Positions 7,323-54,791 of a stretch of DNA of 64,000 nt are shown piece by piece (the stretch's first letter is position 1; the number at the start of each line of letters is the position of its first letter). A model generated the notes under the pieces. The model was given only the letters and a program-made list of their open reading frames with translations, did not search any database and was not told where the DNA came from. This stretch comes from Brevinematales bacterium. GTDB taxonomy: Bacteria; Spirochaetota; Brevinematia; Brevinematales; GWF1-51-8. The translations under genes and the position numbers were made by a program. The stretch covers positions 1 through 64,000 of the forward strand of contig JAGVBZ010000024.1 in the NCBI GenBank assembly GCA_020059465.1, read 5' to 3'.

Positions 7323-8132
7323 TTATTCTTGTGACTGCGCAGGCGAACCTTCTGGCGGGGTTTCGGCGGGGTTCTCGGGCCCCTTTACTGGAAGTTCGGA
7401 TGTCCGCGATATCTTATCGAAGATAAACTGGCTCATCGCTTCCCTGTCCTGCTGTGAAAGATGCGTGAAGCGGAAAGCGCAAAAATTCTTCTGGTATGCG
7501 ACTACTACCGCATTCACCAAAACATCCCGCGAATCCAGCATAAACTGCATGTTTTTCACTTCCATCCCGTTCTCGATCGCCTCTTTATCAAATGTCCCGA
7601 CCAGTTCGACCGCGATCCCCCCCGCGCTGATATCCTTGATTACCCCGAGGATAAGCTGCATATTTAACGTAGACCGGAATTTTACCCCGATTCGTTCGGA
7701 TTCTATCGATGTATTCAGAGAGACGCGGACATACTTGCGCTCAGGAGGGATTCCCCTGATTTTTTGATAGATCTCCATAGTGTATTTCGAAATCGTTTCT
7801 TCTGAGGCGTTGCTTTTTATAAACCCGATCACCCCTAATTGAAGCGCGCGAGTGATCTGCGCTTTATCAACCGATCCGATCAGCATCAGGAGACTGATTT
7901 TTTCCGGCAGCCCAGTTTCGGTGCCCTGTTTGATTTTGATCAATTCGGGAAATACTTCATCATAGTTTTCCTGAATGACATCGAAAACTATCATCTCGAT
8001 CGAATTCTTTCTAACAGTGTCAAATAGCGTAGTGAGATGGTCGGTTTGAAAAACCGATATTCCCATTGGTATGAGTGCGTTGATAAACGTCTTTCGCACA
8101 TAAAAAGACTGGGTATAAACCAGAATATTCAT
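7323..8132 (-). CDS. Receiver-like domain fused to a PilZ domain
   Basis: 269 residues. Residues 1-125 look like a response-regulator receiver fold, with a candidate phosphoacceptor D51 and K106 (FIKSNAS), but the acidic pair near the N terminus is missing, so phosphorylation is doubtful. Residues about 130-245 are a PilZ domain with the c-di-GMP contact residues RKYVR (132-136) and DISAGG (167-172). The tail is rich in Pro and Glu. In motile diderm bacteria such proteins link c-di-GMP to flagellar or surface behaviour. It precedes nadC, with which it has no obvious functional link. The effector partner is unknown. Confidence 0.8.
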   Translation of the reverse strand: MNILVYTQSFYVRKTFINALIPMGISVFQTDHLTTLFDTVRKNSIEMIVFDVIQENYDEVFPELIKIKQGTETGLPEKISLLMLIGSVDKAQITRALQLGVIGFIKSNASEETISKYTMEIYQKIRGIPPERKYVRVSLNTSIESERIGVKFRSTLNMQLILGVIKDISAGGIAVELVGTFDKEAIENGMEVKNMQFMLDSRDVLVNAVVVAYQKNFCAFRFTHLSQQDREAMSQFIFDKISRTSELPVKGPENPAETPPEGSPAQSQE

Positions 8133-51125: not shown

Positions 51126-51305
51126 CTATTCGCTTTTATTAATCGTTTTAATTGCGGCGATCAACTCCTTTTCACTCAGAAACCCCATTTCCAGCAGGAC
51201 AACCCCGAGCTTCTTCTGTTCGCCCGATTCTTGCTTGGCCAATGCTTCGTTCAACTGCTGTTCGGTGATCATCCCTTCCTGAATCAGATATTCTCCAAGT
51301 TTCAT
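51126..51305 (-). CDS. 59-residue MshEN-like domain protein
   Basis: An easily overlooked small gene with ATG 51305 and GGAG six bases upstream. The protein is two matching halves: KLGEYLIQEGMITEQQL...ALAKQ and KLGVVLLEMGFLSEKEL...AIK, the RLGxxL..xG.I....L..AL..Q pattern of MshEN domains of GspE/MshE ATPases, some of which bind c-di-GMP. Here the leading Arg is Lys. CheA, encoded 1.2 kb upstream in the same direction, has the same two-half module at its residues 295-350. Its own promoter lies at 51345-51372, after the che operon terminator. Confidence 0.75.
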   Translation of the reverse strand: MKLGEYLIQEGMITEQQLNEALAKQESGEQKKLGVVLLEMGFLSEKELIAAIKTINKSE

Positions 51306-51344: not shown

Positions 51345-51372
51345 AGCATAGTATAAATCTGAAAAATGTCAA
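51345..51372 (-). promoter_or_regulatory. Promoter of the small MshEN-like gene
   Basis: Minus strand TTGACA (51367-51372), a 16 bp spacer and TATGCT (51345-51350). It lies between the che operon terminator and the gene, so expression can be independent of cheA. The region 50959-51125 after the gene shows no other feature. Confidence 0.45.
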
Positions 51373-51391: not shown

Positions 51392-51422
51392 TAAAAAAGA
51401 GGCTGTTGGGAAAAACAGCCTC
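51392..51422 (-). terminator. Terminator of the cheA-cheY-cheW operon
   Basis: Minus strand GAGGCTGTT, a six-base loop, AACAGCCTC and TTTTTTATTTTT. A nine-bp perfect stem with a strong U-run, 130 bp after the cheW stop. Confidence 0.85.
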
Positions 51423-51550: not shown

Positions 51551-52057
51551 TCAAATAGCCTTTGCCTCGTGTATCCCCGATTGCCTATCGCTGAATTCGC
51601 GCATTTCGACCACTTCGTCGGAACTCAGGATTCTGTCCATATTCAGCATCATTATCATGTGTTCCCCGACCTTCGCTATTCCCTCGAGATACTGACTCTT
51701 CAGACGAAGTCCGATATCCGGCGTCTTCTCGACATCTTCCTCCTTGATATCCACCACATCCTGTACCGCGTCCACGGAGATACCAAGATTATAGACTTCC
51801 TTCGCGCCGAGAACGTCTACGATAATAAACACCGTCCTGTCGGAATAAGCCTGTTCCTGCATACCGAACTTCGCGCGCATGTCGATAATCGGGATGATTT
51901 TCCCGCGCAGGTTGATAACCCCCTTGAGGAAATCGGACGCCTCGTGGATAGGGGTGATTTTCACAAAACGGATAACCTCTCTGATCTTAGAGATGGGTAT
52001 CCCATAGTCTTCGTTATTAATGTTAAATACCAGATGCTTCGTCGAATTGCCTGCCAT
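51551..52057 (-). CDS. cheW: Chemotaxis coupling protein CheW
   Basis: 168 residues of CheW fold: LVFNINNEDYGIPISKIREVIRF, INLRGKIIPIIDMRAKFG and the second beta barrel half. It bridges receptors and CheA in the array. It is the third gene of the cheA-cheY-cheW operon, 15 bp after cheY. Confidence 0.94.
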   Translation of the reverse strand: MAGNSTKHLVFNINNEDYGIPISKIREVIRFVKITPIHEASDFLKGVINLRGKIIPIIDMRAKFGMQEQAYSDRTVFIIVDVLGAKEVYNLGISVDAVQDVVDIKEEDVEKTPDIGLRLKSQYLEGIAKVGEHMIMMLNMDRILSSDEVVEMREFSDRQSGIHEAKAI

Positions 52058-52072
52058 AATAACCTCCTTGGC

Positions 52073-52438
52073 TTACTTCTTCAGGAACATTTCCACCACT
52101 TTGATGAACTTGTCCGCATCGAAGGGTTTAATGATCCATCCGGTCGCCCCCATATTCTTCGCCTGCACCATTTTCTGTTTATCCGATTCTGTCGTCAGCA
52201 TCACAATAGGAGTGGCGGGATCGAGTTTTCTAATCTCGCCGATCAGGGTTATTCCGTCCATATTCGGCATATTGACATCGAGGACATAGAGTTCGATGGA
52301 CTGAAATACGCTTTTTATCTTATTCATCGCGTCTACACCGTCTTCAGCCTCGATAACATCTCTGTACCCGTATAGATCGAGCGATTTTTTTACCACGCTT
52401 CTGACTACCCCAGAATCATCAACGATTAAAATCGACAT
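52073..52438 (-). CDS. cheY: Chemotaxis response regulator CheY
   Basis: 121 residues, single receiver domain. The acidic pocket is D7/D8, the phosphoacceptor D54 (VLDVNMP), T82/T83 in MLTTES and K104 in IIKPF. CheY-P binds the flagellar switch. It lies between cheA and cheW. Confidence 0.93.
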   Translation of the reverse strand: MSILIVDDSGVVRSVVKKSLDLYGYRDVIEAEDGVDAMNKIKSVFQSIELYVLDVNMPNMDGITLIGEIRKLDPATPIVMLTTESDKQKMVQAKNMGATGWIIKPFDADKFIKVVEMFLKK

Positions 52439-52457: not shown

Positions 52458-54791
52458 TTATTCCTGATTGATTCCCATTTCTATTTCGGTCTTCACCGCT
52501 TTATGCAATTTACGGCTGGTCTTTTCTTCCCTGTTCTTTACTGCATCGAGAAAACCCTCAATATCCACCACGAAACCGATCGCTCCGTCGCCGAAGATGG
52601 TACCCCCGGAGAATACGGACATTTGGCTCAGACTTTCCCCGAGATTCTTGATGACTATTTCCTGTTTACCGATTATCTTATCAACTAATATACCATAGTT
52701 TTTATTTTCATGCGAAATAATGACCGCTAAAAGCTGCTTATTTTTATCAGATATATCTATTTCATGCGTGAAAATCGCGTTCGAGAAAATCAGCGGGATA
52801 TAATTACCGCGGTTGAAAAGCATTCGGCTGCCGTCCTCCATATCCCTGATCTGATCGGGCTGGGGAACTAATATTTCATCCACAGCATTGAACGGAAGAA
52901 CATAATTATTTTCCCCGATCTGGATGACAAATCCTTCGATTATCGCCAATGTCAGCGGGAGACGTATGATAAAGCGGGTGTATTTGCCTAATTCCGATGC
53001 GATCTCGACCTTGCCGTGAATCTCGTCGATATTCTTTTTTACCACATCCATACCCACGCCGCGGCCGGAAACTTCGGTGACCTTTTTCGCGGTGGAAAAA
53101 CCCGGCAGAAAGAGGAGATTATAGATTTCCTTATCGGTCATCTCCTGAGCGTCCTCGGCAGTGATCAGGCCGCGCTCGACTCCCTTCCGGATGATCGCGT
53201 CCTTATCGATACCCGCGCCGTCGTCCTCGACAATAATCTGGATACCGTTCCCGCGATGTTCCGCCGATACGGATACCCGCCCCACCCTGTCTTTTCCAGC
53301 CTTCACCCGTTCATCGGGAGATTCGACACCATGATCCACCGCGTTGCGAACCATATGTACCAACGGGTCATAGATCGCTTCGACGACATTCCGGTCGAGT
53401 TCCGTATCCTCGCCGTGGATATCGACGATGACGGTTTTATGAAGTTCGTTGGATGTATTCCTGATCACTACACGAAGCTTATTAAATACTTCCGTAATCG
53501 GCACCATACCCATGGATAGAACAATATTTTTTATATTGGTGGTGATTCCTTCGAGCTGGGAGATTATTTTCTCGACACTCGTCCCGTTGTCGTCCTTCGA
53601 TGACGCCTGCCGGGACTGTTTCAATTCCAGATCGATTACCTGCCTGAGCATCGACTGGTTGATGACCAGCTCTCCTACTATATCGATCAGCGTATTCAGC
53701 CGTTCGTTGGATACTTTTACATAACTGACTTTTTTAGCCACTGACGTCTGTTTACGGATTGCGTCTTTTACATCATCGGCCGAGACCATTTTTTCACGGA
53801 TTGCGATAGTCCCGAATTTATCGTCGGTTTCCGACTGTTTCTGCAGAATGGAAAGGATATCTTCCTTGGTCAGTTTTCCTTCTTCCGCAAGAATCTCGCC
53901 GATCTTCTTGGTCTTATACTGAGACAAGATTCTCTTTATCAGATCGATGTATGAAAAGATATCCACTTTATAAAAACTTTCCCTCATTTTTTCGATATTG
54001 AAGTCCAATGTTTCCATAATAGAAACAAGATTGCGTAGAAGATCGATCCCGTAGAAGATTACATCGATTAGGTCCCGGGATATCCGGAACTTCCCGTCGC
54101 GGATCAAAACGAGCAGGTTTTCCATCTCATGCCCGATCTCCTCGAAGTTCCTCAGACCCAGGAATGCGGAAGACCCTTTGACAGTATGAAATGCGCGAAA
54201 CACTTTGTTGATATTCTCATGGTTCGTTTCATCGTACTCAAGTTCGACCAGTGTAAACTGCGCTATATCCATATGCTCCTTTATTTCATCGGCAAGCTGG
54301 GAAAGCATTTTTTTATCGTCAACAATAGCGCTGAAATAAGCCGGCCCGTAGTGTTCTTCAAGCGAAATATCGTCCGGGATTACCGGAGGCGCATCCGTTC
54401 CGGAAACCGCGGGTTTTTCCCTCACCGCGCCATCCTTTCTCTTCTCACGGCGCAGAATCTCTTCAATCGCGGGAGAGATTTTATCGATGAGTACCGCTGC
54501 GTTTTCCGGGGCAATTTCCTCAGTTAAAACTTTTTCAAGAATCCCGTTAGCAGTGTCCATTAACCCGATTATTTCGTTCTCATGGCCGGTTTGGGACAGT
54601 TTCATTACCGTACGGGCCAGTTGGCTGACAAATTTCGCAATCTCCCGGAATGAAGGATCGGCATAGAGTTCGGCTTGGATTGTGAGGTAGGTTTCTTTTA
54701 ACTCAAGTACGGCCATCAGATCGCCGCTTTCAAATACAGATAAGATTTCCTTCGCTTTGTCGAGGATAGAAGACTTTTCCTGTCGATTCAT
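52458..54791 (-). CDS. cheA: Chemotaxis histidine kinase CheA with MshEN-like insert
   Basis: 777 residues. An N-terminal helical extension of about 140 residues precedes the HPt (P1) domain with phosphoacceptor H202 (FHTVKGSSAFLG). Where a CheY-binding P2 domain is usual, residues about 295-350 instead carry KIGEILAEEGKLTKEDILSI and FGTIAIREKMVSADDVKDAI, a two-half MshEN-like module. P3 dimerisation follows (LIDIVGELVINQSML), then P4 ATPase (HMVRNAVDHG, DDGAGID, GRGVGMDVV) and the C-terminal CheW-like P5. The first gene of its operon, with its promoter at 54890-54918. Confidence 0.94.
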   Translation of the reverse strand: MNRQEKSSILDKAKEILSVFESGDLMAVLELKETYLTIQAELYADPSFREIAKFVSQLARTVMKLSQTGHENEIIGLMDTANGILEKVLTEEIAPENAAVLIDKISPAIEEILRREKRKDGAVREKPAVSGTDAPPVIPDDISLEEHYGPAYFSAIVDDKKMLSQLADEIKEHMDIAQFTLVELEYDETNHENINKVFRAFHTVKGSSAFLGLRNFEEIGHEMENLLVLIRDGKFRISRDLIDVIFYGIDLLRNLVSIMETLDFNIEKMRESFYKVDIFSYIDLIKRILSQYKTKKIGEILAEEGKLTKEDILSILQKQSETDDKFGTIAIREKMVSADDVKDAIRKQTSVAKKVSYVKVSNERLNTLIDIVGELVINQSMLRQVIDLELKQSRQASSKDDNGTSVEKIISQLEGITTNIKNIVLSMGMVPITEVFNKLRVVIRNTSNELHKTVIVDIHGEDTELDRNVVEAIYDPLVHMVRNAVDHGVESPDERVKAGKDRVGRVSVSAEHRGNGIQIIVEDDGAGIDKDAIIRKGVERGLITAEDAQEMTDKEIYNLLFLPGFSTAKKVTEVSGRGVGMDVVKKNIDEIHGKVEIASELGKYTRFIIRLPLTLAIIEGFVIQIGENNYVLPFNAVDEILVPQPDQIRDMEDGSRMLFNRGNYIPLIFSNAIFTHEIDISDKNKQLLAVIISHENKNYGILVDKIIGKQEIVIKNLGESLSQMSVFSGGTIFGDGAIGFVVDIEGFLDAVKNREEKTSRKLHKAVKTEIEMGINQE

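Follow-up and report, generated by a model that had tools for sequence, protein, structure and literature searches.

The window analyzed here is the whole 64,000-nucleotide stretch of DNA from a Brevinematales bacterium, and it carries a chemotaxis cluster followed by a gene for a protein of 59 amino acids. Read along the minus strand, the cluster runs from CheA (52458..54791), a CheY-like receiver (52073..52438; PF00072, E 2.3e-28), CheW (51551..52057; PF01584, E 3.1e-35), a terminator-like site and the mini-protein gene (51126..51305) to a LepA-like gene, a Maf-like gene and an MCP gene, the LepA-like and Maf-like assignments being read from translations. The original prediction had described a 59-residue gene with two matching half-motifs, and both (KLGEYLIQEG and KLGVVLLEMG) are indeed read in the minus-strand translation of 51126-51305, MKLGEYLIQEGMITEQQLNEALAKQESGEQKKLGVVLLEMGFLSEKELIAAIKTINKSE, the plus-strand translation being unrelated. 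Motif I occupies residues 2-25 and motif II residues 32-55, with a spacer of six residues, and the score of one half against the other was equalled by 1 of 5000 shuffles. The mini-protein gene had also been placed beside CheA; the two do belong to the same cluster, but CheY, CheW and the terminator-like site lie in between. A PilZ protein said to be encoded nearby turned out to lie at 7419-7739, some 43 kb from the mini-protein gene, and as the genome has 10 PilZ matches, this one included, it provides no evidence of linkage. GGDEF domains have 12 matches over the cut-off in this genome (13 at E<=0.001), and FlaA (PF04620) has four, as compared with none in 14 control genomes, which points to a spirochaete.

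The mini-protein gene is a real coding gene under purifying selection. It was found in all four genomes of the genus that were searched, and the protein is 95, 93 and 75% identical to the window copy in three congeners. For the three close genomes the pairwise dN/dS values are 0.023, 0.041 and 0.065; synonymous sites are near saturation in the comparison with the fourth. A sigma-70-like promoter (TTGACA-16-TATGCT; 51345..51372, minus strand) lies 5' of the gene, a consensus match of which five were found against 3.5 expected, and a TTGACA-type element occupies the same place upstream of the mini-protein gene in two relatives (G001 and G002). A hairpin followed by a T run, likewise a consensus match to a terminator, lies between cheW and the mini-protein gene (51399..51422, minus strand). 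These promoter-like and terminator-like sites argue that the mini-protein gene is its own transcription unit and not the last gene of the che operon. In G000, G001 and G002 the gene comes after the che cluster or after the MCP gene belonging to it; in G001 and G002 that MCP gene is found between CheW and the mini-protein gene or just upstream of the latter. The LepA-like gene follows in G001 and G003 and is absent from that place in G002, and in G003 the mini-protein gene and CheA are on separate contigs.

The CheA of the window is a protein of 777 amino acids with Hpt, H-kinase_dim, HATPase_c and CheW domains, all four of which exceed their Pfam cut-offs. As had been predicted for residues 295-350, a module resembling the mini-protein lies where a P2 domain is usual; we locate it at residues 296-348 (53748..53906, minus strand), with Hpt (162-255) before it and H-kinase_dim (356-427) after it. 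Standard CheA proteins with a P2 domain, such as those of E. coli and Thermotoga, share with the window protein the Hpt, dimerization, ATPase and CheW domains and the H-x-x-K-G-S phosphorylation region in P1, but the window CheA has the MshEN_N module after P1 and before P3, and a Pfam search reported no P2-type family in it at E<=1. We note that HMMER misses many P2 domains, according to a CheA architecture survey (PMC10782961). The internal repeat of the module is strong, with none of 5000 shuffles scoring as high, and the module and the mini-protein are 31% identical with an alignment score of 64 that was likewise reached by none of 5000 shuffles. When 13 orthologues sharing 45-83% identity are aligned, K296, G298, Q319, G327 and Q348 are among the module positions that do not vary. 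The distance from Gln348 to the conserved Val of P3 is 9-12 residues in these orthologues, and that from P1 to the module is 40 residues in 12 of the 13 and 37 in the other. Spacing this short and nearly constant would fit a part that acts on P1/P3 geometry better than it would fit a flexibly tethered docking domain. Residues 1-140 of the window CheA form an extension before Hpt with no assigned domain, which is common to some orthologues (a GDLMAVLELKE-type start). The CheA gene of one close relative (L003, G002:C36:15700-18030) has an in-frame TAG about 218 codons in, reflecting either an assembly error or a broken gene.

Sequence profiles, joined for the mini-protein by fold prediction, leave little room for doubt about what the two segments are. 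The curated NCBIfam model NF053729, which describes a 53-residue cyclic di-GMP-binding MshE-related domain and has a cut-off of 38 bits, matches the mini-protein at 60.6 bits and residues 296-348 of CheA at 39.6 bits over all 53 positions, the latter a narrow pass; the original prediction, that both would resemble MshEN-type models, holds. Across the whole genome there are three passes: the mini-protein (59.3 bits), a PilB/GspE-type ATPase (59.0 bits) and CheA (42.8 bits). A profile built from 12 mini-proteins matched 17 PDB sequences at E<=1, and all 14 of those at E<=1e-3 are MshE, PilF or PilB chains (MshE 5htl at 7e-16, PilF at 4.2e-33). A profile of the CheA module gave 15 PDB matches, 14 of them to MshE, PilF or PilB chains; the last (E 0.99) is to another protein. 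An AlphaFold model of the mini-protein, made from its sequence alone, has a pLDDT of 91.1 and helices at residues 3-9, 15-25, 33-39 and 45-58, and its best Foldseek match is c-di-GMP-bound MshE (5htl_B; TM 0.93, rmsd 0.5 A), with a Z score of 11.8 over 58 residues against that structure. For so short a chain the Foldseek E-values remain modest (best 5e-3), and helical bundles reach good scores readily. Unrelated entries in the fold tables such as 1vdk and 6xp8 are set aside as common helical arrangements. Complexes of the PilB N-domain with PilZ (7lkm and 7lkn) are also among the structural neighbors of the model. The CheA module folded alone from a single sequence gave a pLDDT of 50.8 and no confident model. 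For the mini-protein, the weight of the identification is that sequence and predicted fold agree on the same few entries, and we regard it as close to certain that the mini-protein and the CheA segment are MshEN_N domains.

Several other assignments were considered and rejected. The Pfam model named MshEN (PF05157, 90 positions) does not match the mini-protein or CheA at E<=1, and over the whole genome its sole match at E<=10 is the GspE/PilB-type ATPase; since it misses both proteins and the ligand-binding half of MshEN has its own model in NF053729, PF05157 is the wrong model for assessing membership and was dropped. No mini-protein that we scanned exceeds any Pfam-A cut-off. PATAN/DUF4388, also called the alpha-clip, shows weak sequence similarity below the Pfam cut-off (20.1 versus 25 bits). 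The C-terminal domain of fumarase shows weak similarity, again below the cut-off (18.4 versus 32.5 bits), together with a similar helical fold (Z 6.5-7.2). A recent duplication of the CheA module is also rejected as the origin of the mini-protein, which scores 64 against the module of its own CheA, 83 against PilB and 126 against a mini-protein of another family.

What the domain would do depends on the residues that contact the ligand. MshEN_N is a 53-residue four-helix bundle in which one c-di-GMP is bound between two 24-residue motifs. In MshE the polar contacts are made by Gly3, together with the next backbone amide, and by the last Gln of each motif, while the first Arg stacks on the ligand (PMC5013675); we followed six contact positions, namely position 1, Gly3 and Gln24 of each motif. 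Our sample consisted of the 34 distinct CheA modules with three gaps or fewer among 110 distinct aligned rows from the loci of the mini-protein and CheA searches. Position 1 carries K, R or L in 34/34 (motif I) and 32/34 (motif II), Gly3 is present in 34/34 in each motif, and Gln24 is present in 30/34 (motif I) and 34/34 (motif II); all six contacts are present in 28 of the 34, including the window module, in which they are K296, G298, Q319, K325, G327 and Q348. The mean conservation of the six contacts is 3.98 bits, as compared with 2.22 bits elsewhere, a value that none of 20,000 random six-position sets reached, in rows that were found by profile and are related to each other rather than independent. 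As a set, these six positions far exceed the rest in conservation, so c-di-GMP binding has probably been retained by the CheA module. A point against binding is the turn Gly of motif II, which 17 of the 34 modules have but which is Lys in the window CheA.

The case for ligand binding by the mini-protein is somewhat weaker, and we consider binding likely on balance. Like MshE 1-62 of Vibrio cholerae and the GSPII-B domain of Thermus PilF, it has a 53-residue repeat, a predicted four-helix bundle, motifs that start with a basic residue followed by L-G, both contact Gly residues and the motif-I Gln; it differs in that the domain is the whole protein, with no MshEN_C or ATPase, in that the spacer is 6 rather than 5 residues, and in that the motif-II contact Gln is Ile. 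For MshE 1-62 on its own, c-di-GMP binding has been measured at 0.35 uM (PMC5013675), and so a free-standing domain suffices. Of the six contacts, K2, G4, Q25, K32 and G34 are kept and the motif-II Gln is replaced by Ile55 in 4/4 copies from the genus. More broadly, 20 gap-free rows from free-standing proteins have Gly3 in 20/20 in both motifs; Gln24 is present in all 20 at the end of motif I but in 14 at the end of motif II, and all six contacts are found together in 6. It had been thought that Lys in place of the motif Arg weakens the c-di-GMP reading; this argument fails because PilF GSPII-B, in which the Arg residues are replaced by Lys, as in the mini-protein, and by Leu, has an affinity of 6 nM, and the consensus was widened to (R/K/L)LG in that study (PMC11731258). 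The missing motif-II Gln is the real weakness. PilF GSPII-B keeps Q190 and Q218 and has no equivalent of Q53 of MshE; Q190E lowers affinity to 950 nM and Q218E, the change corresponding to that in the mini-protein, lowers it to 460 nM, while binding is lost when both are changed (PMC11731258). PilF GSPII-A shows measurable binding only after restoration of both Gln residues and the motif-II Arg, and binding there is blocked by one more helical turn at the N-terminus (PMC12002112); motif I of the mini-protein starts at residue 2, with no blocking turn of this type.

The domain is widespread in the phylum. Among 149 genomes with completeness >=90%, NF053729 exceeds its cut-off in 91, and searches with two profiles (A2 and A3) matched 93 genomes each. 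Using frame length as a proxy for gene class (mini-proteins <=130 aa, CheA 660-1100 aa), we find short frames in at least 47 genomes, CheA-length frames in at least 50 and both in at least 34, all counts being restricted to the phylum, with the CheA loci of other phyla (L062-L141) left out. Among the matches listed, 13 genomes have only the mini-protein and 16 only the CheA module, and the two co-occur with a Fisher odds ratio of 14 (p 2e-11, kinship ignored). Two of the mini-only genomes (G066 and G114) have a module match in a shorter frame, that of G066 being CheA (L252), and CheA signatures are present in 30/30 loci fetched from one profile search. One genome (G020) has mini-proteins and no CheA match at E<=1e-30, so that mini-proteins can occur without such a CheA. 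In several families, mini-proteins of another class (about 65 aa; L198-L203) are repeatedly encoded after a glycerol-kinase-like gene. A protein of 162-165 aa at the genus and order level (G000:C25; L207 2364-2849, plus strand) starts with a weak MshEN_N-like segment, which at 28.9 bits stays under the cut-off, and continues with a coiled-coil-like region.

The N-terminus of FliM is the docking peptide for CheY-P. In other spirochaete families we found a class of mini-proteins of about 90 residues (loci L142-L188) in which MshEN_N is followed by a C-terminal tail resembling this peptide, L038 1426-1758 (plus strand) being one example; the tail reads DEWLDQDEIDMLL, compared with TEILSQDEIDALL in FliM/FliY. 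All 25 distinct mini-proteins with the signature IG-x-I-LVT carry the tail, which is EKWLSQEEID in one and has the form DEWLDQ[DE]E[IVL]D in the others; the strict pattern L[SD]QxE[IV]D covers 24 of them, with Leu in the remaining one. FliM N-termini in 12 genomes searched read MTEILSQDEIDALL or very nearly so. In a six-frame search of 975 kb of spirochaete DNA, a total that counts overlapping loci, the strict ten-residue pattern occurred in 29 distinct contexts: 20 mini-proteins, 8 FliM/FliY N-termini and 1 position within a CheA. The tail is the strongest hint that part of the mini-protein family works in chemotaxis, and it predicts that the tailed class binds CheY-P; the mini-protein of the window has no such tail. 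Tailed mini-proteins usually adjoin a conserved gene of about 330 aa and a thioesterase-like gene of 138 aa (L169-L187), and three of the loci have an MCP-like gene alongside or close by. One representative of the ~330-aa gene, which lies upstream, had no Pfam match at E<=0.1. Elsewhere, a weak FliM match and a CheA match share a single frame of 1088 aa (G036:C26:230352-232415).

The presence of MshEN_N in both the mini-protein and the neighboring CheA suggests that c-di-GMP may be read directly by the chemotaxis system. Most likely both would sense the c-di-GMP of the cell: the CheA module as a built-in input, in which bound c-di-GMP would change the geometry of P1 or P3 and hence kinase output, and the mini-protein as a separate small c-di-GMP-binding protein that would act on a partner or buffer the messenger. 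The best-supported part of this mechanism is the CheA module as a candidate c-di-GMP input to the kinase, whereas ligand binding, the effect on kinase activity and the partner of the mini-protein are what we infer. We assign the explanation as a whole a probability of roughly 0.55. That the mini-protein of the window itself acts in chemotaxis is a more tentative proposal, and competition with the CheA module would be conceivable. The mini-protein is no closer to the module of its own CheA than to PilB.

The alternative that survives best, which we consider unlikely, is that both are protein-docking modules that no longer bind ligand, much like the N-domain of XpsE, with the CheA module replacing P2 and the mini-protein acting as its competitor or mimic. 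The position of the module and the failure to find P2 would fit this, as would the contacts that MshEN domains also make with proteins (the PilB N-domain with PilZ in 7lkm and 7lkn), the one contact Gln missing from the mini-protein and the docking-type peptide on a different mini-protein class. The XpsE N-domain has lost G11, R38, G40, L54, L58 and Q61 (PMC5013675), however, and the CheA modules show the opposite pattern, their ligand contacts being what is most conserved; mimicry of CheA is not favored because PilB and the other mini-protein outscore the CheA module in alignment with the mini-protein, and G020 has mini-proteins in the absence of a CheA match. Less likely still, the mini-protein could be a c-di-GMP receptor or buffer outside chemotaxis, for example for the type IV pilus ATPase, with the che neighborhood incidental. 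Its apparently separate transcription unit, the quite different genes that adjoin other mini-protein classes and the placement of the other strong copy of the domain in PilB/GspE would all be accommodated, but the mini-protein gene keeps its place behind the che cluster or its MCP gene in three genomes, and mini-proteins and CheA modules occur together in at least 34 of the 149 genomes, kinship again ignored. A chance open reading frame or gene remnant with accidental similarity, for which the shortness of the gene and the want of a Pfam-A match over cut-off might speak, is refuted by dN/dS values of 0.02-0.07, the NF053729 match and the confidently predicted fold, and has a negligible chance of being right.

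Turning again to direct reading of c-di-GMP, the MshEN domain, its binding of ligand on its own and its fusion to CheA are already published (Wang et al. 2016, PMC5013675). That paper names CheA and CheX among MshEN partners, and MshEN within CheA is common to its account and ours; the main-text sentence in question gives no position, organism or contact analysis. The text portion of the CheA architecture survey (PMC10782961) contains no occurrence of 'Msh', and the accessible part of a survey of c-di-GMP proteins in Leptospira lists a single MshEN protein, GspE (PMC12943098). The literature searched, which comprised listings and the papers named here, yielded no article about MshEN_N proteins that stand alone or about the FliM-like tail. 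The spirochaete-wide family of free-standing MshEN_N proteins looks new, and the FliM-tailed class is the most novel thing we have seen; free-standing proteins of this kind are small enough for annotation cut-offs to miss.

It is conceivable, though we hold this broader picture only loosely, that many spirochaetes feed c-di-GMP into chemotaxis both through an MshEN_N domain at the P2 place of CheA and through free-standing MshEN_N microproteins, of which the tailed class might retain CheY-P or let it go depending on c-di-GMP and the tailless class, as in the window, lies behind the che operon. The conservation of the contact residues makes the CheA part of this reading directly testable. Known links from c-di-GMP to chemotaxis run mostly through PilZ proteins, receptors or methyltransferases. 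If our reading is true, no route from c-di-GMP to chemotaxis would be shorter than a kinase that itself carries the receptor.
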